DNA from: Aquibacillus albus
Lineage (GTDB): Bacteria > Bacillota > Bacilli > Bacillales > Amphibacillaceae
Assembly: GCF_016908325.1 (NCBI RefSeq)
Contig: NZ_JAFBDR010000002.1
Span: 1 to 64,000, forward strand
Length of the DNA stretch: 64,000 nucleotides
Direction: 5' to 3'
A program made the position numbers and the translations under genes. The notes under the pieces were generated by a model, which worked only from the letters and a program-made list of their open reading frames with translations, made no database searches and had not been told where the DNA came from. Below are positions 52,691 to 64,000 of this stretch, one piece after another (position 1 is the first letter of the stretch; each line of letters opens with the position of its first letter).

Positions 52691-54139
52691 ATGATAACAT
52701 TTCTATTTGGAATTATATTATTAATTGTTGGTTATTTTACGTATGGTAAATTTGTAGAAAAGGTATTCGGTGTCAAAGACCGTGCGACACCTGCTTTTAC
52801 ACATAAAGATGGTGTCGATTATCTGCCGATGAACACACGGAAAAATTCATTAATTCAGTTATTAAACATTGCTGGTGTTGGTCCTATTTTCGGTCCAATC
52901 ATGGGTGCATTGTATGGACCTGTTGCCTTCTTATGGATCGTATTTGGTTGTATTTTTGCAGGGGCTGTTCATGATTATTTAACTGGGATGATTTCGATTC
53001 GTAATCGTGGGGCACATTTGCCTGAACTAGCTGGTAAATTTTTAGGAAAAGTAATGAAGCATGTCGTGAATGTGTTTGCCGTTTTACTTTTACTATTAGT
53101 TGGAACCGTTTTCGTTACTGCTCCGGCTGGATTGCTTCATAACATGATGAGCGGCTGGGCAACAATGGGACTTATTATCGGGGCAATTTTCGTTTACTAC
53201 CTGTTTGCGACGTTACTTCCTATCGATAAAATTATTGGGCGTTTTTACCCTATTTTCGGTGCACTATTAATGATTAGTGCGATCGGGGTTGGAATTGGTC
53301 TAGTCGTTACTGGAGCTCCAATTCCTGAAATCAGTTTATCAAACTTTCATCCAGATAACGCACCAATTTTTCCATTACTATTCTTGACTATTTCCTGTGG
53401 TGCTTTATCAGGTTTCCATGCAACACAAACGCCTATCATCTCTCGTACAACACAAGGTGAGAAACAAGGCCGTAAAATATTCTATGGCATGATGATTGCA
53501 GAAGGTGTTATCGCTATGATTTGGGCTGCAGCAGCTATGAGCTTATTTAATGGTCCAACTGGTTTGAACGAATTACTTGCTAACGGAGGACCTGCAGCAG
53601 TAGTAAGTGAAGCATCAATCTTAATGCTTGGAGCTATTGGCGGTACGCTTGCAGTACTAGGTGTTATAGTGTTACCAATCACATCTGGTGACACAGCGTT
53701 TCGAAGTGCACGTATGATCATTGGTGATTACATTAACCTATCGCAAAAGAAAATTGCCAACCGTTTGTGGATTGCGGTTCCGTTGTTTGTGATTTCCTTT
53801 GCACTAACAAAAATTGATTTCACCTTATTATGGCGCTATTTCTCTTACGCCAACCAAACAACAGCTGTTATCGCACTGTTTGTAGGAGCAATGTTCTTAT
53901 ATATTTCGAAAAAGAACTATTGGATTGCATTGATTCCTGGTATCTTCATGTTGCTTGCGACAATGACTTATATTCTAAATGCGCCGATTGGTTTCGGATT
54001 AGCATTAAGTACCTCCTATATAGGAGCCGCCATCATATCAACTGTACTAGTCGTTGTCTTTTTCCGAGCAGCTAAAAAGGCACGCAACAATAACCTTCCA
54101 CTGGAAGAAGACATTTCTAATTGGAATAACGCAGCATAA
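52691..54139 (+). CDS. cstA: CstA-family peptide/pyruvate transporter
   Basis: A 482-residue membrane protein with about 13 helices. The CstA signature is clear: NIAGVGPIFGPIMGALYGPVAFLWIVFG, AGAVHDYLTGM, GFHATQTPIISRTT and LPITSGDTAFRSARMIIGDY. CstA/BtsT proteins import pyruvate and, in some reports, peptides. It is short like the Bacillaceae form and lacks the long C-terminal part of enterobacterial CstA. GACGAGGAGGTTTACAAA precedes ATG. Placement after lytST with a LytT-type site argues for a pyruvate-sensing uptake module like BtsSR-BtsT. Confidence 0.92.
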   Translation: MITFLFGIILLIVGYFTYGKFVEKVFGVKDRATPAFTHKDGVDYLPMNTRKNSLIQLLNIAGVGPIFGPIMGALYGPVAFLWIVFGCIFAGAVHDYLTGMISIRNRGAHLPELAGKFLGKVMKHVVNVFAVLLLLLVGTVFVTAPAGLLHNMMSGWATMGLIIGAIFVYYLFATLLPIDKIIGRFYPIFGALLMISAIGVGIGLVVTGAPIPEISLSNFHPDNAPIFPLLFLTISCGALSGFHATQTPIISRTTQGEKQGRKIFYGMMIAEGVIAMIWAAAAMSLFNGPTGLNELLANGGPAAVVSEASILMLGAIGGTLAVLGVIVLPITSGDTAFRSARMIIGDYINLSQKKIANRLWIAVPLFVISFALTKIDFTLLWRYFSYANQTTAVIALFVGAMFLYISKKNYWIALIPGIFMLLATMTYILNAPIGFGLALSTSYIGAAIISTVLVVVFFRAAKKARNNNLPLEEDISNWNNAA

Positions 54140-54144
54140 TGAAC

Positions 54145-54175
54145 AAAAGCTTCGGCATGGGCCGAAGCTTTTTCT
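54145..54175 (+). terminator. Terminator of cstA
   Basis: AAAAGCTTCGGC (54145-54156) pairs with GCCGAAGCTTTT (54161-54172), followed by further T residues (TCTTTT). Confidence 0.9.
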
Positions 54176-54195
54176 TTTAATACTGTCCTCCCAGC

Positions 54196-54240
54196 GAAGA
54201 CAAATTGACCACTTTGTCCACGGGCGGGGTCAGACCCCTT
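54196..54240. repeat. GACAAA hairpin plus GGGGTCAGACCCC palindrome
   Basis: GACAAA...TTTGTC (54199-54218), CCACGGGC, then GGGGTCAGACCCC (54226-54238). It is nearly the same string as 49966-50012. It lies directly after the last gene of the Pel-type operon on the minus strand. Confidence 0.85.
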
Positions 54241-54245
54241 TGCAA

Positions 54246-54929
54246 TTATGTGGCGTAGTTGCCGTTGTATTGGACGAGGGATACGTCTTGGACGCCTTCG
54301 ATGGTTGAGATTTTGTCGACGAATGTGGTGTTGTCGATTTTTAGTTTGAGTTCGACGGTTAGTTCTGTGATTTCGTCTCGGGTGATTTTTGATTTAATCG
54401 TATGGGTTTTCAGTTTATTTAGTTCTTGTTTCACTTCGTAGTAGGCTTTCATATTGTATTGGACAATCAGCAAATACGTGTGTCTTTCTGTTTTCTTTTT
54501 GGATAGGAGCACAATCACGATTCCTACAAATATCGAGCCAATCGTGACGACTTCATAAAATCTTGCACCAGCAGCAATACCAACCGAAATCGCCCAAAAC
54601 ATAAATACAATATCGAGAGGATCCTTGATCGCTGTCCGGAACCGAACAATACTCAGGGCACCAACCATCCCTAGTGATAAGACAATATTGGTGCTAATCG
54701 TCATGATGACAATCGTCGTAATCATCGTCATTAAAACGAGGGTCATATTAAAGTTGTGGCTGTACACGACGCCTTGGTAGGTTTTTTTATAAATCCAAAA
54801 AATAAATAATCCAATCAAAAAAGACACAATAAGTGGAATGACAATATTTATAATCGAAATACGGGCAAATTCTTCTACGTTAAGAAAATTTTCATTAAAT
54901 ACGTCATTGAAATTAAATTGCTCCGGCAT
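54246..54929 (-). CDS. DUF4956 membrane protein
   Basis: A 227-residue protein of the DUF4956 family: three to four helices in residues 25-155 with the conserved core LGMVGALSIVRFRTAIKDP and FWAISVGIAAGARFYEV. A cytoplasmic alpha/beta tail ends VQYNGNYAT. Function is unknown; members very often sit beside VTC-domain and CotH genes, as here. ATG 54929 follows GGAGGGGAG by nine bases. A longer frame to 54983 overlaps the VTC gene and contains this ribosome site. It is the last gene of the operon. Confidence 0.88.
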   Translation of the reverse strand: MPEQFNFNDVFNENFLNVEEFARISIINIVIPLIVSFLIGLFIFWIYKKTYQGVVYSHNFNMTLVLMTMITTIVIMTISTNIVLSLGMVGALSIVRFRTAIKDPLDIVFMFWAISVGIAAGARFYEVVTIGSIFVGIVIVLLSKKKTERHTYLLIVQYNMKAYYEVKQELNKLKTHTIKSKITRDEITELTVELKLKIDNTTFVDKISTIEGVQDVSLVQYNGNYAT

Positions 54930-54951
54930 AGCTAGCGGCTCCCCTCCGAAA

Positions 54952-55698
54952 TCATTGTTTAAAAAAATCCATCCCTGCTTCACGGCAAATCACATATTTT
55001 GAAATAGCGGAACGTTCATGACTATCTAGGTGCAATATTCTTCTAATATAAGATGGTAAATACTCGTTAAATTTCACTTCCATAATTAGCTTTGGAAAGG
55101 TAAGTGCTTCCTTCGTAACAAGGCTTGGATTAAATACATCTAGTGAGTTTGTACTTGCACTAAGCTGCTTATCAAAAGTAATCCGAACTTCACTTTCCTC
55201 TCCTACATAAGCCTCCCGCGTATAATCAACAATTACCTTGGGTGTTAACCTTTCGCTCCGCAATAATAAATAAAAATCACGGTACAAATAAGATCCTTCT
55301 TTGTCTCTTAAAAATTGATAATCTCGCTTTCTTAGTTTACTATATTCTGCTCTCGTTATCGGAGCGGACTCTTTGCATATGTACTCTCCGTAGCGATGCT
55401 TTCTCTCTAATTTAATGACAGAATCACTCTTGTTATATGTCCGAATTCGGATCTTTTTTCGCTTTAACAACCCATAGCTTTTTTGATATAAATCATCATC
55501 ATAGATATTATCAAAATAAAGACTACGAATAAGGTATCCTTTTTCACTGACAGCATGTTTATCCTGCGGAAGCACTGTACCAATGCGCTTTCGCAAAATT
55601 TCATAGTCCAGTTGATTTATATAATATTTCAGTTCATGGCGAAATTTTTTGTTAATCCCTGAAAGCTCGTGTTGTCGCTTCGGTTGGTACCTGTGCAT
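54952..55698 (-). CDS. VTC-domain protein (polyphosphate polymerase-like)
   Basis: A 248-residue protein with the VTC triphosphate-tunnel fold. Basic and acidic tunnel motifs are visible: FRHELKYYIN, IRSLYFDN, KIRIRTYN, IKLERKHR, VDYTREAYV, VRITFDK and the closing LIMEVKFNEYLP. In yeast Vtc4 this fold makes polyphosphate from ATP; bacterial stand-alone copies are uncharacterised. The ExExK-like elements and Lys/Arg pairs seem retained, so activity is plausible. AGAGGGGATATGC precedes ATG. It lies 13 bases after cotH and 22 bases before the DUF4956 gene. Confidence 0.88.
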   Translation of the reverse strand: MHRYQPKRQHELSGINKKFRHELKYYINQLDYEILRKRIGTVLPQDKHAVSEKGYLIRSLYFDNIYDDDLYQKSYGLLKRKKIRIRTYNKSDSVIKLERKHRYGEYICKESAPITRAEYSKLRKRDYQFLRDKEGSYLYRDFYLLLRSERLTPKVIVDYTREAYVGEESEVRITFDKQLSASTNSLDVFNPSLVTKEALTFPKLIMEVKFNEYLPSYIRRILHLDSHERSAISKYVICREAGMDFFKQ

Positions 55699-55711
55699 GC
55701 ATATCCCCTCT

Positions 55712-57418
55712 TTATTGATTGATAAATTCCTTTAGCCCCCAGTGGTAGCTTCCTTCTCTATCAATAAAACGATCAAATGGTATTTGTTGATTTCCATGCT
55801 CGTCGCTAACGAGTACACGCCAATATAAACGCCCTTCTGGAAGATCACGAACGGTTGTACTTGTTCCTAGCAAGTCAGCTTGTTCATGAATAACCGTTTC
55901 AAACGATGTATCCTCGCTGATTTGAAAAGTGTAGCTTAAATCATCTCCTTGGATGTCGTACGCATACTCCCAATTAAACGTGTATCCGCCATTTTTTTCT
56001 ACAGCAGAACCGAGAAAAATCGGCATAGGATGTTCAAGCTGTTCCTCATAGATTGCTTTATTCTTTTCCAACTCATTAACTAGATCGTAAAACTCAGCAT
56101 CAAAGTCCTCTAATTCAATAGGAAAATACGTCAAATCTGGTGGCTGTGAAACGAGCTCTTTTACGATTGGATAATAATTGTCTAATAAACGTTCCACTTC
56201 TTTTTCATTAATATAAGCAGCCAGCTCTTCTATTTTTTCATTCAAAGCAGCGACATTTTCCGGGTTCTTAAAGTATCGTTTGTGAAGAACCGTTCCCCAA
56301 TATCTCGCCAGCCCTGTTTGCCATGCTGGAACATACCGACCCCTTTCCTCATACCAGCCAAATCCTTTATCGTAATCCCACGGAATAAAGTACCACTTAT
56401 CTGTGTTCGGCGGACTATAGAGGTAATAGTTCGTTGACATCGTATCAATGTTGCCAAATAAGATATTGGTTGCAATCCATGTTAAGTAATTGTCTTTATC
56501 AAAATACTGCTCCACAACGTCATCCATATTTCGCTTGGTGTCATTGACCGCTTGAAGCATTTCTATTAGGCCCGAATGATCATCACTGCCTTTTATTTCT
56601 AAAATTCTCTCGAAAGCTTCCTCATTGTAGGTAGGATCATCTTTGACTTTTATCGTGTCTTCATATCGAAAAAATTCAAACCTGGATGCTTTATATAAAT
56701 TTCCATACGGGTTCAGTCCATGCGCATTTAAATATCTTTCATTCGCTTGCTCCACATGTGTGTATAACCCATAAGACTCAAAGGAGGATGCACCTGCAGT
56801 CAAATCCTTCACATGTATTTCAACGAATTGTGTACGCATACTAATAAAATCGGGAATCGTTTTGAACAAATCAAAGGCTAGCTTATTTTTCACCCGAGTA
56901 ATGTCATCCGCATGCTTATTCAAATTTAAATTGTTCTGCCCTCTCCAAAGTCCGGCACTATCCTTCAATTTAATTTTATAGGATTTCTGTACTTCTAATT
57001 TACTTGAGTTTCCACGTATTTGAATCGTTGCATTTCCATTTGGAACATTGCCTTTCATTTTTTTGCTCGGGCCATTTTCGTCACCAAGCTGAAAAATAAC
57101 ATGTAGTACAGGACTATCCTCATCTTGATCATGGAACTGGTAAAATTCATTCATCTCGTAAAAGCTAGGGTCACCAGCGCTTTGCTCATCTAAAATCGTC
57201 ACGTAAAAATGCTCGAGCGATCCTTCCTCGTCTTCCTTATAAATCCGCTTATCCTCCATGACTAGATCTGACGTCGAACCTTGCTCTGCCGAATCTTCTT
57301 TGGTAGCCGATTGTTCCGAGGAAGCATCTTCTATCGGGTCCGCTGTCAGGTAAGCGCATGCGGATAGCAACACGATGACGACGATAAACATGCCAAGTAT
57401 GAATAATTTTTGCTGCAT
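55712..57418 (-). CDS. CotH-family lipoprotein kinase-like protein
   Basis: A 568-residue protein with a lipobox LLSAC signal and an acidic linker, so it faces outward. A CotH domain follows with IQIRGNSS, KSYKIKLKD and NLNKHADDITRVKNKLAFDLF. It also has YGLYTHVEQANERYL, and WDYDKGFGW at 347-355 with the metal-binding Asp pair. CotH of spores is an atypical kinase that phosphorylates secreted proteins. A C-terminal Fn3-like module (about 475-568) is added. Being extracellular and tied to Pel genes, it could modify exported protein or matrix rather than spore coat. Confidence 0.88.
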   Translation of the reverse strand: MQQKLFILGMFIVVIVLLSACAYLTADPIEDASSEQSATKEDSAEQGSTSDLVMEDKRIYKEDEEGSLEHFYVTILDEQSAGDPSFYEMNEFYQFHDQDEDSPVLHVIFQLGDENGPSKKMKGNVPNGNATIQIRGNSSKLEVQKSYKIKLKDSAGLWRGQNNLNLNKHADDITRVKNKLAFDLFKTIPDFISMRTQFVEIHVKDLTAGASSFESYGLYTHVEQANERYLNAHGLNPYGNLYKASRFEFFRYEDTIKVKDDPTYNEEAFERILEIKGSDDHSGLIEMLQAVNDTKRNMDDVVEQYFDKDNYLTWIATNILFGNIDTMSTNYYLYSPPNTDKWYFIPWDYDKGFGWYEERGRYVPAWQTGLARYWGTVLHKRYFKNPENVAALNEKIEELAAYINEKEVERLLDNYYPIVKELVSQPPDLTYFPIELEDFDAEFYDLVNELEKNKAIYEEQLEHPMPIFLGSAVEKNGGYTFNWEYAYDIQGDDLSYTFQISEDTSFETVIHEQADLLGTSTTVRDLPEGRLYWRVLVSDEHGNQQIPFDRFIDREGSYHWGLKEFINQ

Positions 57419-57541
57419 CGCAAAACCCTCCCTTCAAGTGCGTGTTTAAAAAGGTCGATAAATTCGGAGCTTCTAGCATCGGAGTGTAGGCTTTCCCTAC
57501 ATGAAACGAATACGCAGCTTATCATTTGGTAATACATCCTC

Positions 57542-58972
57542 TTACAAATGCTTCAACCGTTTTAATAGCCCTTCAGTTTTCGTCTTTTTTTCCACATATA
57601 CGACTGGCTGTGAACAATACGTATAATAGTCAATATTCGTCAGGTATCGCATTAAACTGAAAATCGCAACACACAAGGCGACAAATGCACCTAAAAAGAC
57701 GGGTAAACCATAAAACCCGAACCTCATTCCTAAAATGGAAAAGACAACAACTGAAATAGCGAACAAGCTTGATGTAAAGAAAGCGCCCTTTTGGTAATCA
57801 AAATACAATAATATAAGTAGAATGATTTGCATCAGACTAAAAAATAAATTTCCTAACGTTAACATTGTAAAAATATGAACTTGGTCTGCTGTCATCCCAA
57901 TCGTCGGCAGTAATTGAACGCCTAGTGTAAAGGCAAAAAAGATAACGAATAGCTGCACTTCAGCAACCAATGTCAATTCTAAGGAAACGACCTTAAATAA
58001 CCGATCTTTTGCCGTTGAAATATCACGAAAGGAAAACGAATGTAATATCCGGTGGTAATACCTTTTGTACGCTTCATAAAAAGTCGTTTCCACGGACACC
58101 ATAAATAAAACCGTTGCTGGAAGAATGGTTAAAATAGCAAAAAAGACAGGCACATCATAATATGGTGCATAATAGAACGTTTCACCGATCATTTCCTGAT
58201 ACTCACTTTGCCAAATGACGAAATGGTGTCCATACAGTCCAATACTGAAAAACATACCACTGAATAATAGCAATGGATATTTTTCTATATAAATCAGGAA
58301 TAGAAAATATTTCTGATTATCGATGTGAAAATAAGCTCGGATATAATTTGTAAATAAAAGAATGATGACAAAAAAACCGATATCCAAACAAAGAAACAGT
58401 GCTGTAGCAGTCATCCACTTTAATGTAAATAAGCAAAAAACAATCAACCCAACTGCAACAGCTATTCCAATCAAAAAGCTTTTCACTATTTTCATATAGT
58501 CTTTTAATGCAGAGACATACATACTCTGAATCCAAATAATAATTAATTCGACAAAAAATGAATAAGTTGCCAGCTTAAACAACAGGGGTAATGGCGAGCT
58601 CCAATAAAACAAACATCCAGCAATAGCCCCGATCATCACACAAATACTGATTAAGCCGTACATCGATGAAAGCACGTTGTCTTCCTTTTTCAAAAAGGTT
58701 TGATCAGCGACAAACCGTGAAATCACGTAAGCAAATCCATTCGTAATCATCTGTGAAAAGATAAACGCATACATTGTGCCTGCCATAAAAAGCTCTGTTT
58801 CCTCAACTGAAGCACCTACCGATTCCATGATCAGCTTAGAAAATAAGATTAAGCATATACATATCGCCATCGGACCTACTGTGACAATGGAAGAATAGCT
58901 ATAGGCGCGAATGTTTTGAAACAATCCCGATTTGCTATACAGTTTTTTCAGTTGAAATCCTATTCCTGCCAT
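57542..58972 (-). CDS. pelG: PelG-like polysaccharide export membrane protein
   Basis: A 476-residue polytopic protein with about 12 helices, starting MAGIGFQLKKLYSKSGLFQN as PelG proteins do. PelG is a MATE/Wzx-like flippase partner that, with PelD and PelE, exports the polymer made by PelF. Family landmarks ITNGFAYVISRFVAD and VETTFYEAYKRYYHRIL are present. The gene overlaps pelF by 13 bases. The ribosome site lies within pelF. About 120 bases without a convincing gene separate it from cotH. Confidence 0.93.
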   Translation of the reverse strand: MAGIGFQLKKLYSKSGLFQNIRAYSYSSIVTVGPMAICICLILFSKLIMESVGASVEETELFMAGTMYAFIFSQMITNGFAYVISRFVADQTFLKKEDNVLSSMYGLISICVMIGAIAGCLFYWSSPLPLLFKLATYSFFVELIIIWIQSMYVSALKDYMKIVKSFLIGIAVAVGLIVFCLFTLKWMTATALFLCLDIGFFVIILLFTNYIRAYFHIDNQKYFLFLIYIEKYPLLLFSGMFFSIGLYGHHFVIWQSEYQEMIGETFYYAPYYDVPVFFAILTILPATVLFMVSVETTFYEAYKRYYHRILHSFSFRDISTAKDRLFKVVSLELTLVAEVQLFVIFFAFTLGVQLLPTIGMTADQVHIFTMLTLGNLFFSLMQIILLILLYFDYQKGAFFTSSLFAISVVVFSILGMRFGFYGLPVFLGAFVALCVAIFSLMRYLTNIDYYTYCSQPVVYVEKKTKTEGLLKRLKHL

Positions 58973-60384
58973 TGTACGCGCCCCTGTGCTTCATAGATAT
59001 TTTTGTATTGTTCAATAAAACCGTCTTTGCTGTAAAATGCTTTCACGCGCTTCCATCCGCTTCTCCCCATCTCTTCGCGCAGCTTTTGATCGCGACAAAG
59101 GGTAATGATTCCATCTGCAATGACGGAATAACTCATGACTGGAGCGACGAATCCCGCAGGTCCAAATGAATCATTCGTACCTTCAATCATTTCTCTGCAT
59201 GAACCAACATCGGTAGTTACCGACGGAATGCCAGCTGCCAAACCTTCCAGAATCGCAAAGGGTTGCCCTTCACTAATGCTTGTTAAGACAAGAATATCGA
59301 TACTTTTCATGTACTCCTTAATATTAATGGATCCAGTAAAAATTACGTCCTCCAATCCTTGTCTTTCAACAAAGCGGACACATTCCTCATAATATTCTGG
59401 CTCCTCATTTGTTGGACCCATCACAAAAAATTTGGCGTTAGGAACCTGTTCTTTTACAATCGCAAAGCTCTGCAGCATTGTTTTTATATCTTTAATTGGA
59501 ACGACACGAATAATCGCACCAATGTGAATCATTCCCTCTTCCTGGTGTAAAATCGGCAAATCTTCATAGTCCTCGACATGAACACCATTCGGTATGATCG
59601 TTGTTTTTTCTTTCGGACAACCTATTTCAACTTGAATTTCCTGGTTTCTTTCAAACATAGCAATCACGTTAGAAGCGTATCGATAGGCACAATTAGACAT
59701 GCTGTAAAAATAGCGAATCCATAAATCCTTTAAGTGTCCCTGAATCCATGTAGCTTTAATGATTTCCTCTTCCCGCTCTCTCGTATAAATTCCATGCTCG
59801 GTTAACATGTACGGTTTTTTATACATGTAGCTGGCAAGTCCACCAACGACACCTCCATATCCAGTCGACATGCTGTGATACAGGTCTGCCTTGGGTATCG
59901 GGTGCTCGATACAAAGGAATAACGGCAACACCATCGATCGGAGTGACCAGTATAATTCTGTAAATGGCAAATTTGGATATTTTTCCAGTGCTAGTTCGGA
60001 AATAATATCGAAAAAGTCTTTGCTCGTTAAAAAGTTAATGACATGGTCGATGCGCCCGCTTATAAACAAGGCGAAAACCGTATCCCAATCCGGTGTCTTG
60101 CTAACTAATATTGATTTGATCGCTTCCTTTTCCTTAGTGGAAATTCGATATCGCCTTCCCCATTTCATTTGATAATCTAAATAGGAATCGAGAAAAATTT
60201 CTTCCATATGAACGACATTTTCTGGGATATGATATTTGAATTGACCACGCTGTTTATGATCAGCACTGATGGCATATACGCTAAATTCAAATTGTGGCAA
60301 GCTTTCGATTAACATTTGCACCCAACTGGAAACGCCGCCCGTTACATATGGATATGAACCTTCAACAATGACACAAATTTTCAT
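58960..60384 (-). CDS. pelF: PelF-like GT4 glycosyltransferase
   Basis: A 474-residue cytoplasmic glycosyltransferase that would polymerise the Pel-type polysaccharide from UDP-sugars. Donor-binding GT4 signs are EGQPFAILE (Glu372-x7-Glu380), a GGVSSWVQMLIESLP nucleotide-sugar loop near residue 17 and HGIYTREREEEI, the PelF-specific block. AAGGGTCGTC precedes ATG. It starts four bases before the end of the preceding gene (ATGA) and runs into pelG. Confidence 0.95.
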   Translation of the reverse strand: MKICVIVEGSYPYVTGGVSSWVQMLIESLPQFEFSVYAISADHKQRGQFKYHIPENVVHMEEIFLDSYLDYQMKWGRRYRISTKEKEAIKSILVSKTPDWDTVFALFISGRIDHVINFLTSKDFFDIISELALEKYPNLPFTELYWSLRSMVLPLFLCIEHPIPKADLYHSMSTGYGGVVGGLASYMYKKPYMLTEHGIYTREREEEIIKATWIQGHLKDLWIRYFYSMSNCAYRYASNVIAMFERNQEIQVEIGCPKEKTTIIPNGVHVEDYEDLPILHQEEGMIHIGAIIRVVPIKDIKTMLQSFAIVKEQVPNAKFFVMGPTNEEPEYYEECVRFVERQGLEDVIFTGSINIKEYMKSIDILVLTSISEGQPFAILEGLAAGIPSVTTDVGSCREMIEGTNDSFGPAGFVAPVMSYSVIADGIITLCRDQKLREEMGRSGWKRVKAFYSKDGFIEQYKNIYEAQGRVQWQE

Positions 60385-62153
60385 GACGACCCTTCCAATC
60401 TAATTTCAAATGTCGCTTGCTTAGCTGTGATAAGATAAACACCCGGATCAACCAGTTCAACCGTGTAACTTTTTGCTGTTTGAACCGTCTTGTCTGTTCG
60501 TAAAAAGAAATAAAACTCATCGACATCACGACTAAGGGCTACACTTAATCCATTATCTGTTTGTTCGATGCGTACATCTGTAGCTAAAAATTCCTTTATC
60601 GTAGAACCGGCCTCTGCACTGGTCATCGAGCGTAACCAAGGATATTTTTCCTGAATATCTTTCGTGATCGTTTCATAATTGGATGCCAGCTCCTCCCAGC
60701 TAGCTTGACTCGTCAGCACTTCCCAAGGTGAAATTTGATGTGCATATACGCCAATGGAATAGATGGCATTTGCTATCACCCATTCGGTTTGTTCTGAATA
60801 GCTGTACCCACTGGATGTGATCGGTACATACGTCCAATTATTTTCCTGTTTAAACTCAGATGCTTGCTCTGCATAATCAACGACTACATTTTCAATCGAT
60901 GGATAGACTTGCTGCACAGCTTGCAACCCTTCCTCACTTATTTTTAAATCTGGTGGATAATACGTTTTTATTGAATAATTAGGAAAAGATTGATCCATAA
61001 ATTGGTCTGTATTGTCCAACACTTGATAAATATCATCAACAGACTCCCAATAATTTTCCCCAACAAACAGGGGGACGTTGTTATAGCCTGCTAACGCTAA
61101 TTCGCCATCAATTTTCATTAGCTCTCTTACATACTTCACAAAATCCTGGCGTAATAGGCCATCACTAAATGGCGCATTTACTTTGTGATCGTTAACCGGC
61201 ATAAACCCACTCGTATAGCTTAGCTCGTCATCCATTGCTGTTTTTTGAATCGCAGGCCACCAGATGTCCCGATAAAATCCAACGATATCTTTTTTATAGG
61301 CTTCGAAAATTGCTTGATTCCTGCCAGATGGAATTTCAGATGGAAAACCGTCTATGAAACTCATTTTCACGTTCATAATTGGATATAAAAAGTCGTCTTC
61401 AACAAGACTGATCGCTGACGTTAAAAGGCCTCTGGCAGATTTTTTATCAAGCATCGTCCCATTGAACGTAATAAATGTTCCTTCTTTATAGTTACGATTC
61501 CATAGTAATGGAACGTCATCACTAGACTGTGCATAAATATTACTTCGCTCTTCTAAGCCTACAAACAGGGAAGAGTTCGTAATAAAACTTCCATCTATTT
61601 TCATGGATTGTTGATTGGGCCACAGGTTATCCGCCACTTGAATGCCAGCTGTTGTAACAAAGCCACCAAACTCATAAATTCCAAGTTTTCGATAAAGATA
61701 GATAAAAGCATCATCTATTGCCGGGCGGACGGTAAATAAAACCGTCCCGCCATTAGCTACATATTGATCCAGCTTTGTAATATCATCGAATTTTTCCAAT
61801 GCTTCAAAATTAACGATTACTGTGTTGTATGCATCAAAAGCTTCTGTTAAAGATTGAACAGGTACCGTTTGAAACGCTTTTTTCATATAAGTTAAAGTTT
61901 GTTCGACATTTGTTGTGACAGATTGGCTGAGTTGGCTTTCCTCGTCATAAATCAATAAAAAGTTCGGTTTTTCTGTAAAGGAGGATTGTGAAACTGCTTG
62001 TTCCTTTTCAGTAGATGCTGCACTATCTTGAAATTGCTTGTAACCTAATGTTAATGCGTAATTTGAGCGAATAACTTCTAAAAATAATCCAAATATAAAA
62101 ACGAAGCAGAGGATAAAAAACACACTTTTTCCTAGTCTAAACTTACGATTCAT
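60381..62153 (-). CDS. PelA-like DUF2194 protein, deacetylase ligands missing
   Basis: A 590-residue protein with one N-terminal membrane anchor (about 9-30) and a large outside portion. Its position and layout match the PelA deacetylase homologue (PelA-DA) of Gram-positive pel operons: a Rossmann-like region (FLLIYDEE to about 230), then a barrel-type region. The expected HxxxH metal motif is absent: the matching place reads Ala-Gly-Tyr-Asn-Asn (355-359). Asp268 of FIDGF lacks its usual acidic neighbour, and the whole protein has only two His. It may be a non-catalytic relative. GGAGAGGCAA precedes ATG; it overlaps pelE. Confidence 0.83.
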   Translation of the reverse strand: MNRKFRLGKSVFFILCFVFIFGLFLEVIRSNYALTLGYKQFQDSAASTEKEQAVSQSSFTEKPNFLLIYDEESQLSQSVTTNVEQTLTYMKKAFQTVPVQSLTEAFDAYNTVIVNFEALEKFDDITKLDQYVANGGTVLFTVRPAIDDAFIYLYRKLGIYEFGGFVTTAGIQVADNLWPNQQSMKIDGSFITNSSLFVGLEERSNIYAQSSDDVPLLWNRNYKEGTFITFNGTMLDKKSARGLLTSAISLVEDDFLYPIMNVKMSFIDGFPSEIPSGRNQAIFEAYKKDIVGFYRDIWWPAIQKTAMDDELSYTSGFMPVNDHKVNAPFSDGLLRQDFVKYVRELMKIDGELALAGYNNVPLFVGENYWESVDDIYQVLDNTDQFMDQSFPNYSIKTYYPPDLKISEEGLQAVQQVYPSIENVVVDYAEQASEFKQENNWTYVPITSSGYSYSEQTEWVIANAIYSIGVYAHQISPWEVLTSQASWEELASNYETITKDIQEKYPWLRSMTSAEAGSTIKEFLATDVRIEQTDNGLSVALSRDVDEFYFFLRTDKTVQTAKSYTVELVDPGVYLITAKQATFEIRLEGSS

Positions 62154-63024
62154 TTGCCTCTCCTTGTATCCAGAAGCGTAATTTGCTTAATCCCTTTTGT
62201 GACAGTTTTATCGACGAATTCCTTAATTCATGTACGGTTTGCTGAAACCCGGCATCATCCTTTAGTTGGTAGTAAAGCTTCATCGTTTGAAAGTAGCTCT
62301 CTTCATTTCCTGGGAAATAATGTCGAAATAGATCACAATAATATCTAGCATTCTGGTATTCTCCAAGCTCTAAATCATTATCTATCTTCTTAATAAAGCA
62401 TTCCTCATTATAAGGGTTTAATTCTAAGATTCGTTCCAAGACGCCGCTATAGGTGTACCTATATTTTCTAATCGTTTGATGATCGACTAATTCGACTTCC
62501 AAATAGTTTTTTAGAAGCTGACTCATTTCTATTAATTTATTTAGATTGATAGGATCCTTGTCCAGCTCTACTTCTAAGTCCTGGATGCTATTCCCAAGCT
62601 TACTCTTCGTATCCATAATGGCCGTAGCAGCAAAATGTGAGGTTTCCGTATCTTCATTTTCAAGTGCAGCACGCAGTAAATGAGTATTTTGAAACGAATC
62701 TTTTTTTAACATATTTAATAGCATCTTTCGTTTTAGCTGATTATCATTAAACATTAGTGCGTCCTTAAAAGGGATCACATTGCTGACACTCGCATGCTGG
62801 TCCTTTTGCAAAATTTCTTCATCGTCATCATCACTGATTTGAATCAGCCAATCTGGCAAGGAATTTGCTTCTTTTTTATTGAAATACAAAAAAATCAAAA
62901 GAATGATTCCGAATACGGGGATGCAAACGATAAAAGCTAAGCGCACGATCCAATTGATTTTTTTCCTCATTAGCCAAAAGACTAGTGTGCTAACGACAGC
63001 GTAAATGATTAGAGCGTTAATCAT
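62143..63024 (-). CDS. pelE: PelE-like membrane/TPR protein
   Basis: A 293-residue protein with two N-terminal helices (about 2-20 and 26-45) and a helical-repeat cytoplasmic part. The TPR-like stretches include LERILELNPYNEECFIKKID and the LGEYQNARYYCDLFRHYFPG block. PelE is the scaffold of the PelDEFG inner-membrane complex. ATG 63024 follows GGTGGG by seven bases and overlaps the pelD end by eight bases; the longer frame to 63093 lies wholly within pelD. Sequence conservation is low in this family, so the call rests on order and topology. Confidence 0.82.
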   Translation of the reverse strand: MINALIIYAVVSTLVFWLMRKKINWIVRLAFIVCIPVFGIILLIFLYFNKKEANSLPDWLIQISDDDDEEILQKDQHASVSNVIPFKDALMFNDNQLKRKMLLNMLKKDSFQNTHLLRAALENEDTETSHFAATAIMDTKSKLGNSIQDLEVELDKDPINLNKLIEMSQLLKNYLEVELVDHQTIRKYRYTYSGVLERILELNPYNEECFIKKIDNDLELGEYQNARYYCDLFRHYFPGNEESYFQTMKLYYQLKDDAGFQQTVHELRNSSIKLSQKGLSKLRFWIQGEANES

Positions 63025-64000
63025 TGGCGGTCCCACCGACTGAAATCTGTTGATACTGAAGCCGCGTAATGACGTGCTGAGCAGTCTTTTCATCCGTATT
63101 CGCTAGTAAAATCGACAGGGTTCCATCTGCTTCCACACCTACGTAATCCGTTTCTCTTAATAACTGTGTGACTTTATTCAGTTGTTCTAGTTGATACGTC
63201 TTTTCTATACTTAGCTTTGTATAAGGGATCTTAAACTGTTGCCATGCCTTCTGTTTACTTGCGAGTATTTTCGCAAAATATTCTGGCTTCAATACCACTG
63301 TTCCGTCATAATACCTTTCTTGATTTGTTGCCTGCACATAATCTGTTGCCTTTATTAAAGAGCTAGAAATCAGACTTACGATCACATGAAATAAATTTTG
63401 ATAATATAATGTAAGGTTTTCAAAGTTCATTTCATAAATGAACACAACCGCTATCGTTTTATCCTGTTTCACGATTGGCGCAATCATCTGCGGCATGTTT
63501 TCTACAAATTTTTTGTTAAAAAAATTTTCCTTTGAGCTTATTACTTGTGCTAAAACACTCTCATCCTTTACCATAATGGAGGATGGAATAATTAAATCAT
63601 TTCTTCGTGATTTTGATACAAGCCTTAGATACCTATTGCTATTAACTAAATAAATTGCTGCTGCATTCGTTTTCATCGTCTGCTCAATCACAGCTGTCGC
63701 TCCAACAAAAATATCATCAGGCTCTAAGCTATCTAATTGTTGAACCATCGAGTAGATTTTTCCAATCCCATCCTCGGATTCCACGATTTGTGTCTCTAAC
63801 TCTTCTTTTTGATCCCGAATTTCCTGGTACAAGTCCTGAAGAAAGTCATACTTCTGACCGGCGGCAACCAGCTCCTGCTTGGCACCATGTGCGTCTATCT
63901 TTTTGCGGTCGATGATATAGCCGACAATTAAGCCGATAAATAAGTAGACAGCAAATTGCATTAAAACCTCATTGTCAATAAATAACGTGATGAAATCTCT
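63017..64000 (-). CDS. pelD: PelD-like c-di-GMP receptor (5' end beyond window)
   Basis: Partial gene: the frame stays open to the window edge. The visible part begins with membrane sequence (VLMQFAVYLFIGLIVGYIID), the last of the expected four helices. A coiled linker, a GAF domain (about 75-215 counting from the Met at 63961) and a degenerate GGDEF-like domain follow. PelD binds c-di-GMP to switch on polymer synthesis. A RxxD-type motif, Arg119-Arg-Asn-Asp122 in SKSRRNDL, sits where the inhibitory-site-like motif is expected. First visible gene of the pel operon. Confidence 0.85.
   Translation of the reverse strand, partial: RDFITLFIDNEVLMQFAVYLFIGLIVGYIIDRKKIDAHGAKQELVAAGQKYDFLQDLYQEIRDQKEELETQIVESEDGIGKIYSMVQQLDSLEPDDIFVGATAVIEQTMKTNAAAIYLVNSNRYLRLVSKSRRNDLIIPSSIMVKDESVLAQVISSKENFFNKKFVENMPQMIAPIVKQDKTIAVVFIYEMNFENLTLYYQNLFHVIVSLISSSLIKATDYVQATNQERYYDGTVVLKPEYFAKILASKQKAWQQFKIPYTKLSIEKTYQLEQLNKVTQLLRETDYVGVEADGTLSILLANTDEKTAQHVITRLQYQQISVGGTAND

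Follow-up and report, generated by a model that had tools for sequence, protein, structure and literature searches.

A pel operon of Aquibacillus albus with cotH, VTC and DUF4956 genes: gene pairing, gene order and, in relatives, fusion of PelG to CotH

The first 64,000 nucleotides of contig NZ_JAFBDR010000002.1 of Aquibacillus albus (assembly GCF_016908325.1; this whole stretch is called the window) carry a pel polysaccharide operon that continues past pelG into three accessory genes, cotH, a VTC-domain gene and a DUF4956 gene (together, the module). The combination is a real, conserved feature and a further example of a published architecture, described by Whitfield et al. in 2020 (PMC7112168) and in a 2025 mBio paper on Streptococcus intermedius (PMC12345266); these and all other papers are cited here from excerpts of their text. 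The survey reported below adds the pairing of VTC with DUF4956, many Pel-free neighbourhoods in which the genes stand in another order, and a fusion of the exporter PelG with CotH. In the excerpts, both describing papers leave open what the three genes do beside pel. Two facts narrow this role: VTC and DUF4956 form one unit, found for the most part at a distance from Pel, and a whole lineage has CotH physically linked to the Pel exporter.

The operon and its published precedents

Eight co-directional genes on the minus strand make up the locus. Their open reading frames (ORFs) lie where the original prediction had placed pelD, pelE, a PelA-like gene, pelF, pelG, cotH, VTC and DUF4956, and a hairpin follows the last of them:

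54246..54929, minus strand: DUF4956 membrane protein, 227 aa from the likely ATG (frame in the ORF list 54246-54983, GTG start); PF16316, E 1.1e-12
54952..55698, minus strand: VTC-domain protein, 248 aa; PF09359, E 3.7e-38; without a hydrophobic segment or an SPX match
55712..57418, minus strand: cotH, with a lipoprotein-type signal (LLSAC); PF08757, E 6.5e-62; kinase domain 132-455, FN3-like part about 462-568
57542..58972, minus strand: pelG, exporter, 476 aa; PF16933, E 2.5e-121
58960..60384, minus strand: pelF, glycosyltransferase, 474 aa; PF11997 (DUF3492), E 1.1e-80, and glycosyltransferase (GT) family 4
60381..62153, minus strand: PelA-deacetylase-like gene (DUF2194), 590 aa; PF09960, E 3.8e-100
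62143..63093, minus strand: pelE-like gene, 316 aa, two hydrophobic segments; cluster and place common to seven pel loci
63017..64000, minus strand: 3' part of pelD; the whole frame (63017-65293 on the contig, 758 aa) runs beyond the window edge
54145..54172, no strand assigned: two-sided hairpin of 12 pairs between DUF4956 and the convergent neighbour gene, a pattern match only

Matches above the Pfam cut-offs identify six of the eight genes (DUF4956, VTC, CotH, PelG, DUF3492 with GT4 in PelF, and DUF2194). The PelE-like protein has no Pfam match; it and PelD were assigned by grouping with their counterparts in other pel loci, through clustering and position, and the pelA-type assignment combines the DUF2194 match with position. 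PelF and PelG (PF11997/GT4 and PF16933) are adjacent, as in pelDEADAFG operons. PelD begins with an NAD-dependent epimerase (SDR) domain, followed by a membrane part, a GAF-like part and a degenerate end with RxxD; its DUF4118 and GAF matches both fall under the Pfam cut-offs. The sequence RETD at 713-716 and an arginine 28 residues further are spaced as R363, D366 and R395 of Bacillus cereus, a correspondence of spacing and not of alignment. Together with ten GGDEF matches outside pelD in the window's genome, these residues make it unlikely here that the module stands in for missing cyclic di-GMP (c-di-GMP), and that candidate explanation was set aside. The RxxD motif is lost from PelD in the relatives L067 and L068.

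The packing is as tight as the ORF coordinates had suggested, with one correction. The supposed overlap of VTC and DUF4956 is probably a 22-base gap, because homologues of DUF4956 begin at the ATG at 54929, a likelier start than the GTG at 54983. The step of about 120 bases foreseen before cotH measures 123. A pattern scan of this pelG-cotH gap gave no promoter-like and no terminator-like match, which is weak evidence; the promoter scan returned 30 matches against 37.8 in shuffles, that is, fewer than shuffled DNA. In the relatives L046 and L048, the same gap is 3 and 18 bases long when measured to the earliest possible start codon, and 27 and 42 when measured to the first ATG. The strong two-sided hairpin 3' of DUF4956 likely marks the end of the transcription unit. 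The interval after DUF4956 (54139-54246) holds no PelA-hydrolase-like gene (c12, GH114-type), a gene present in nine of the ten loci L056-L065, and the hydrolase family of these relatives has no match in the 20 kb around the window locus.

Published precedents mean that the architecture is not new and that function is the remaining question. In streptococci and clostridia, Whitfield et al. found pelDEADAFG directly adjoined by cotH, a polyphosphate polymerase (PPP) gene, DUF4956 and DUF4832; the accessory genes accompany SDR-PelD, and bifidobacteria have diguanylate cyclase/phosphodiesterase (DGC/PDE) genes in addition (PMC7112168). They proposed that CotH regulates Pel output in species without c-di-GMP (PMC7112168). 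The window likewise has cotH, VTC and DUF4956 contiguous with pelG, alongside an SDR-PelD. According to the original prediction, known Gram-positive pel operons stop after pelG or finish with sugar-nucleotide genes, which the accessory set published in 2020 contradicts (PMC7112168). Nor is the arrangement itself unrecorded, as cotH-PPP-DUF4956 beside pel stands in print in both papers (PMC7112168, PMC12345266).

The VTC-DUF4956 pair and its tie to pel

Distribution was surveyed with Pfam models and computed neighbourhoods in 100 genomes (the window's own and 99 relatives) and a 299-genome draw from the phylum, 397 distinct genomes together. VTC occurs in 73 of the 397, and these are exactly the genomes that have DUF4956 (Fisher p about 1e-81, uncorrected for kinship). 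DUF4956 lies within 2.5 kb of 80 of the 82 VTC places, on the same strand in all 80; the two places without it nearby are at a contig end (G161) and in a partial gene (G368). Both families also match in the same three of 14 control genomes. Left out of the neighbourhood counts are the second fragment of one broken VTC gene (G039), two CotH matches that are weak or stray (G343:C23, G275) and weak matches to PelG in G008, G023, G078, G139 and G379. VTC and DUF4956 are nearly inseparable and form one unit, mostly located away from pel, with PelG within 6 kb of 4 of the 82 VTC places. The prediction of a single cotH-VTC-DUF4956 module belonging to Pel is not supported on this point. The notion that VTC replaces PPK1 was dropped as well, since the two show no association: PPK1 is found in 13 of 28 VTC genomes and in 36 of 72 others (p 0.83), and the window's genome has both.

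CotH is part of many of these neighbourhoods, lying within 4.5 kb of 39 of the 82 VTC places. Four of them are pel loci and 35 lie outside pel, 33 of the latter in genomes that lack any strong match to PelG. All four pel loci read CotH-VTC-DUF4956. Elsewhere, 31 of 35 places read VTC-DUF4956-CotH and none has the pel order on one strand (one of the 35 has that order with CotH on the opposite strand). A second sample comprised the best 80 of 576 loci picked by VTC similarity; a VTC frame was called in 72 of them, with DUF4956 beside VTC in 64 and CotH in 48, and the eight loci without a called VTC were left uncounted (one, L073, was recovered by tblastn). Here CotH stands near VTC without PelG in 31 loci; since the loci were chosen by VTC similarity, the pel share of 23 in 80 is not a rate. 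This sample also holds the sole same-strand exception to the rule of order, L092, which reads CotH-VTC-DUF4956 without pel and whose upstream DNA is cut off. The 2025 paper states that the three-gene arrangement is absent outside pel (PMC12345266). The view that these neighbourhoods refute that statement was dropped after gene orders were counted. Away from pel, this sample shows the three genes as neighbours in a different arrangement, and CotH-VTC-DUF4956 in that exact sequence is close to exclusive to pel loci.

The Pel-free neighbourhoods are varied. Three loci (L025:11074-19360, L037:4442-13045, L043:4110-12376) share a non-Pel operon that encodes, in order, a membrane-anchored protein, VTC, DUF4956, CotH, a 680-aa protein, a HEAT protein and a polysaccharide-synthase-like GT2; a Pfam scan of L025, the locus scanned, gave no significant match for the first protein or the 680-aa protein. 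In L023, L031, L034, L042, L121, L125, L135 and others, a Cthe_2159-type lipoprotein takes CotH's place after VTC-DUF4956 (identified by Pfam scan in L031 and by similarity in the others). Such proteins (c14) were considered as divergent CotH and rejected, the one scanned (L031) being PF14262. Several pairs sit beside apparent two-component regulator genes (L023, L026, L030, L034, L036, L042, L045, L080, L088), an assignment made from sequence beginnings and clustering rather than Pfam. One pair, L084:3943-5402, is on a contig labelled as a Nanohalarchaeota metagenome-assembled genome, through possible transfer or a binning error.

The tie between module and pel varies with lineage. Among the relatives, three of seven PelG genomes have the module, the window's own included. 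In the phylum draw, with the window's genome and G204 set aside, VTC lies beside PelG in none of eight PelG genomes, and one of them (G235) has the three genes elsewhere. A different picture comes from family f43, which holds G204 and probably contains Paenibacillus and Cohnella. Of 295 genomes searched there, 44 have a genuine PelG (E <1e-49), weaker matches in G426, G427, G550, G664 (barely at the Pfam cut-off) and G675 being excluded. VTC, DUF4956 and one or two copies of CotH lie downstream of pelG in all 44 pel loci, an association beyond chance within this family. ORF calls in 43 of these loci gave CotH in 42, VTC in 38 and DUF4956 in 38, and the rest came from tblastn (in L217, CotH and DUF4956 in pieces); in 8 of the 44 loci, at least one of the three was recovered by tblastn only. 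The predicted linkage of pelG with the three genes in other genomes is thereby borne out for this family and not for VTC at large, where 4 of 82 places are near pelG.

Pel-linked VTCs occupy one side of a branch in the VTC tree (26 of 100 rows; support 89, under the 95 mark, in a quick search without bootstrap), which points to a lasting bond with pel. The nearest pel-linked VTCs to that of the window come from Bacillaceae-type genomes. SDR-PelD accompanies the module in most loci where PelD is readable to its start; the module is absent from L140 despite its SDR-PelD, and in L192, L214 and L216 the ORF calls put SDR and PelD in two different frames. In the window's own family, PelG is above the cut-off in one of 60 genomes (G000-G059), the window's own, so the operon is sporadic there, either gained recently or widely lost. 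In Neobacillus bataviensis (L066:11417-12802), the gene after DUF4956 encodes a DUF4832 protein, which places the streptococcal four-gene set in Bacillaceae also.

Structural comparison concerns what the pair could do. A profile search of solved structures with VTC recovers Vtc4, and phmmer with one VTC protein as the query gave no match among them. VTC residues R84, R86 and E207 align with Vtc4 R264, R266 and E426, which were altered to inactivate the yeast enzyme (PMC9911596). The numbers were transferred by counting along the alignment at a constant offset, and the three residues are invariant in 21 of 21 aligned VTC rows (29 fetched). The VTC enzyme looks intact, and the polyphosphate-polymerase fold proposed at the outset agrees with this retention of residues that align with catalytic ones of Vtc4. 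The predicted structure of DUF4956 (mean pLDDT 82.8) has five predicted helices and then an ACT-like domain. An R-F-R motif at a helix end closes its most conserved stretch, is invariant in 49 of 49 rows and is a candidate polyphosphate contact, presumably on the cytosolic side. In Foldseek, rank 1 is the MgtC C-terminal domain 2lqj (E 1.3e-3, Z 10.3), tied with other ACT-like folds; the listed matches are confined to residues 148-225, so that they speak for that part alone, and the membrane part has no informative structural match. Against solved structures, phmmer with DUF4956 gave chance-level matches only and the profile nothing significant.

CotH and its fusion to PelG

CotH of the window aligns with 5jd9, and its model (mean pLDDT 86.4) superposes on B. 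cereus CotH 5jda with Mg/AMP at Z 32.4 and 2.8 A over 339 residues; residues 462-568 of the predicted structure resemble an FN3 domain. D348 and D350 are invariant in 25 of 25 pel-linked rows and D325 is kept in at least 90% (set A4 contains 24 of the 25 separate pel-linked CotH frames). By constant-offset counting along the alignment, D325 and D348 are the equivalents of D228 and D251, which are catalytic in Bacillus subtilis CotH (PMC7821199). The description of CotH as an outward-facing atypical kinase appears sound: the proteins have a lipobox or an N-terminal hydrophobic anchor (judged by eye in the alignment), a kinase fold and the active-site aspartates. The second of two tandem CotH genes in the Paenibacillus pel loci L069:8161-9960 and L070:8158-9960 lacks the D228-equivalent aspartate and may encode a pseudokinase. 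For Zetaproteobacteria, a CotH domain is likewise reported from a protein of very large size associated with their Fe-stalk clusters (PMC8250860), possibly a further association of CotH with an exopolymer.

In 5 of the 23 pel-linked loci among the best 80 of 576, PelG and CotH form a single frame of 1036-1041 aa (L072, L074:6880-9990, L075, L077:6384-9509, L078). The reading that CotH is missing from these five was wrong, as it lies inside the PelG frame. In family f43, the two are fused in 28 of 44 pel loci (L176-L203); the 44th locus, that of G204 (L137), is unfused. In 27 of the 28 fusions, the junction shows a hydrophobic stretch and after it a lipobox-like cysteine, L203 having no readable junction; WDxD is present in 27 of 28. 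Depending on which of two end limits is applied, no ATG, GTG or TTG precedes the signal in 7 of 21 or 9 of 27 readable junctions (one of the nine, L197, is doubtful, its cysteine having been picked early). A start with a Shine-Dalgarno-like stretch is found in 1 of 21 or 2 of 27. Where no start codon precedes the signal, the only way to make CotH is as an extension of PelG, and the explanation of the fusion as a start-site artefact was dropped on these grounds. Internal starts are possible in the remaining fused loci.

In a PelG tree of 80 rows (33 of them fused, these from 30 genomes), the fused label needs two changes; the fused group has a support of 88, again under the 95 mark in a quick search without bootstrap, and the tree has long branches. 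The single unfused row within this group is G407, whose PelG frame is broken. As far as the PelG tree shows, the fusion probably arose once and was kept. No mention of it was found in the main-text passages of PMC7112168 and PMC12345266, the supplements lying outside that search; a full-text literature search for PelG with CotH returned, by title, only these two papers on the topic. The fusion and the place of CotH beside PelG suggest that CotH works in step with PelG, and the internal signal puts it probably outside the membrane. CotH most likely acts outside the cell at the Pel exporter.

Candidate mechanisms and known systems

The reading we favour, tentatively and with somewhat less than even confidence, is that the Pel operon carries a two-part phosphate module, a split VTC-DUF4956 system plus a CotH kinase at PelG. 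Soluble VTC would make polyphosphate from ATP in the cytosol. DUF4956, its constant membrane partner, would probably form the path or gate of the chain, in a direction that we infer, and the pair would resemble a split yeast VTC complex. CotH, an outward-facing and membrane-anchored atypical kinase sitting at the PelG exporter, would phosphorylate its target where export takes place, be it the Pel polymer as it emerges or a Pel protein outside the cytoplasm, and would thereby set the amount or cohesiveness of Pel. The best evidence for CotH at PelG is the fusion, together with the position of CotH between PelG and VTC in pel loci. The near-constant pairing of VTC with DUF4956 and the conserved active-site residues of VTC and CotH speak for the reading as well. 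Deletions of the accessory homologues in S. intermedius lend further support, in that loss of DUF4956 gave more Pel and less aggregation and loss of cotH gave less Pel and less aggregation (PMC12345266).

Several points weigh against this reading. None of the four extra genes is needed for Pel production in S. intermedius; the VTC deletion still aggregates and makes Pel and, in the excerpts, is absent from the strains with changed levels (PMC12345266). Of all the evidence, this VTC result speaks most strongly against polyphosphate having a role in Pel, and it argues against a simple one; the model can accommodate it if VTC keeps running on its own once DUF4956 is lost. VTC is absent from 4 of the 7 PelG genomes among the relatives and from 7 of the 8 in the phylum draw, so Pel does not need the module. 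The E426-E207 pairing is weaker than the others, its stretch scoring only 0.9 bits alone. Given the internal lipobox, cleavage may turn the fusion product into two separate proteins once it is made. CotH is not expected to meet ATP as a donor outside the cell, and a literature search turned up no activity for the bacterial VTC-DUF4956 pair. A version in which VTC-DUF4956 makes and exports polyphosphate, and CotH at PelG uses this instead of ATP on the Pel polymer or its export partners, we consider very doubtful.

A purely regulatory role is unlikely on balance, and it accounts for part of the evidence. CotH and DUF4956 would then regulate Pel output, with CotH phosphorylating a Pel protein and VTC dispensable for it. 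The S. intermedius deletions fit, as Pel rose without DUF4956, fell without cotH and showed no reported change without VTC (PMC12345266), and the PelG-CotH fusion places the kinase beside the exporter. A pure regulator, however, leaves unexplained why VTC stays with DUF4956 in 44 of 44 family loci, and the PelD residues (matched by spacing) and GGDEF matches described above indicate that the module is probably no stand-in for c-di-GMP. We regard as rather improbable a role of VTC-DUF4956 in exporting polyphosphate, a polyanion that would bind the cationic, partly deacetylated Pel and help to hold the matrix together, with CotH priming or anchoring the chain. Conserved VTC active-site residues and the second operon with a polysaccharide-synthase-like GT2 would suit it; 78 of 82 VTC places are not near pelG, and the S. 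intermedius VTC deletion still aggregated, though the polymer there is termed GalNAc-rich (PMC12345266). Little credence also goes to a function of VTC-DUF4956 in phosphate storage or stress, with its presence in pel operons due only to shared regulation. Most pairs do lie away from pelG, several of them beside the apparent two-component regulator genes, yet VTC neither takes the place of PPK1, the enzyme normally used for storage, nor depends on its presence, and the pel-linked VTCs keep to one side of their branch.

The fusion has practical value, as it points to the likely site of CotH action and offers natural single-chain constructs in which its role is easier to test. The three genes also keep company beyond Pel, in another order. 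If CotH does phosphorylate a polysaccharide or use polyphosphate, this would be a new kind of extracellular chemistry.

Known systems share parts of this picture. The pelDEADAFG accessory loci resemble the window in having accessory genes contiguous with pel and an SDR-PelD (PMC7112168); the window, by comparison, has no DUF4832 next to DUF4956, and its PelD keeps RxxD. The S. intermedius cluster shares CotH (SIR_1594), the polyphosphate polymerase (SIR_1593) and the MgtC/ACT-type membrane protein (SIR_1592), and has an extra glycoside hydrolase, SIR_1591 (PMC12345266); the hydrolase family known from relatives is unmatched in the 20 kb around the window locus. With the yeast complex Vtc1/Vtc3/Vtc4 (PMC9911596), the bacterial pair has in common the VTC domain, the R264/R266/E426 equivalents and a polymerase paired with a membrane part, whereas bacterial VTC has no membrane or SPX part of its own and DUF4956 is its membrane partner. 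Spore-coat CotH (5jd9, 5jda) has the same fold (Z 32) and active-site aspartates; in contrast, pel CotH has a lipoprotein-type or N-terminal anchor, an added FN3-like domain and, in some loci, the fusion to PelG. A published likeness to the Pel-free neighbourhoods is NELoc-2 of Clostridium perfringens (Lepp et al. 2010, PMC2879425), where VTC genes, membrane proteins of 222-226 aa and CotH occur together. The genes beside it are not Pel genes and encode a 685-aa protein, a HEAT protein and a chitin-synthase-like GT (PMC2879425). The 222-226 aa proteins, annotated there as tubulin/FtsZ-type, are taken as DUF4956-like by size and place only. In sizes and order, NELoc-2 resembles the operon of L025, L037 and L043, with the VTC pair doubled and a resolvase between (PMC2879425).

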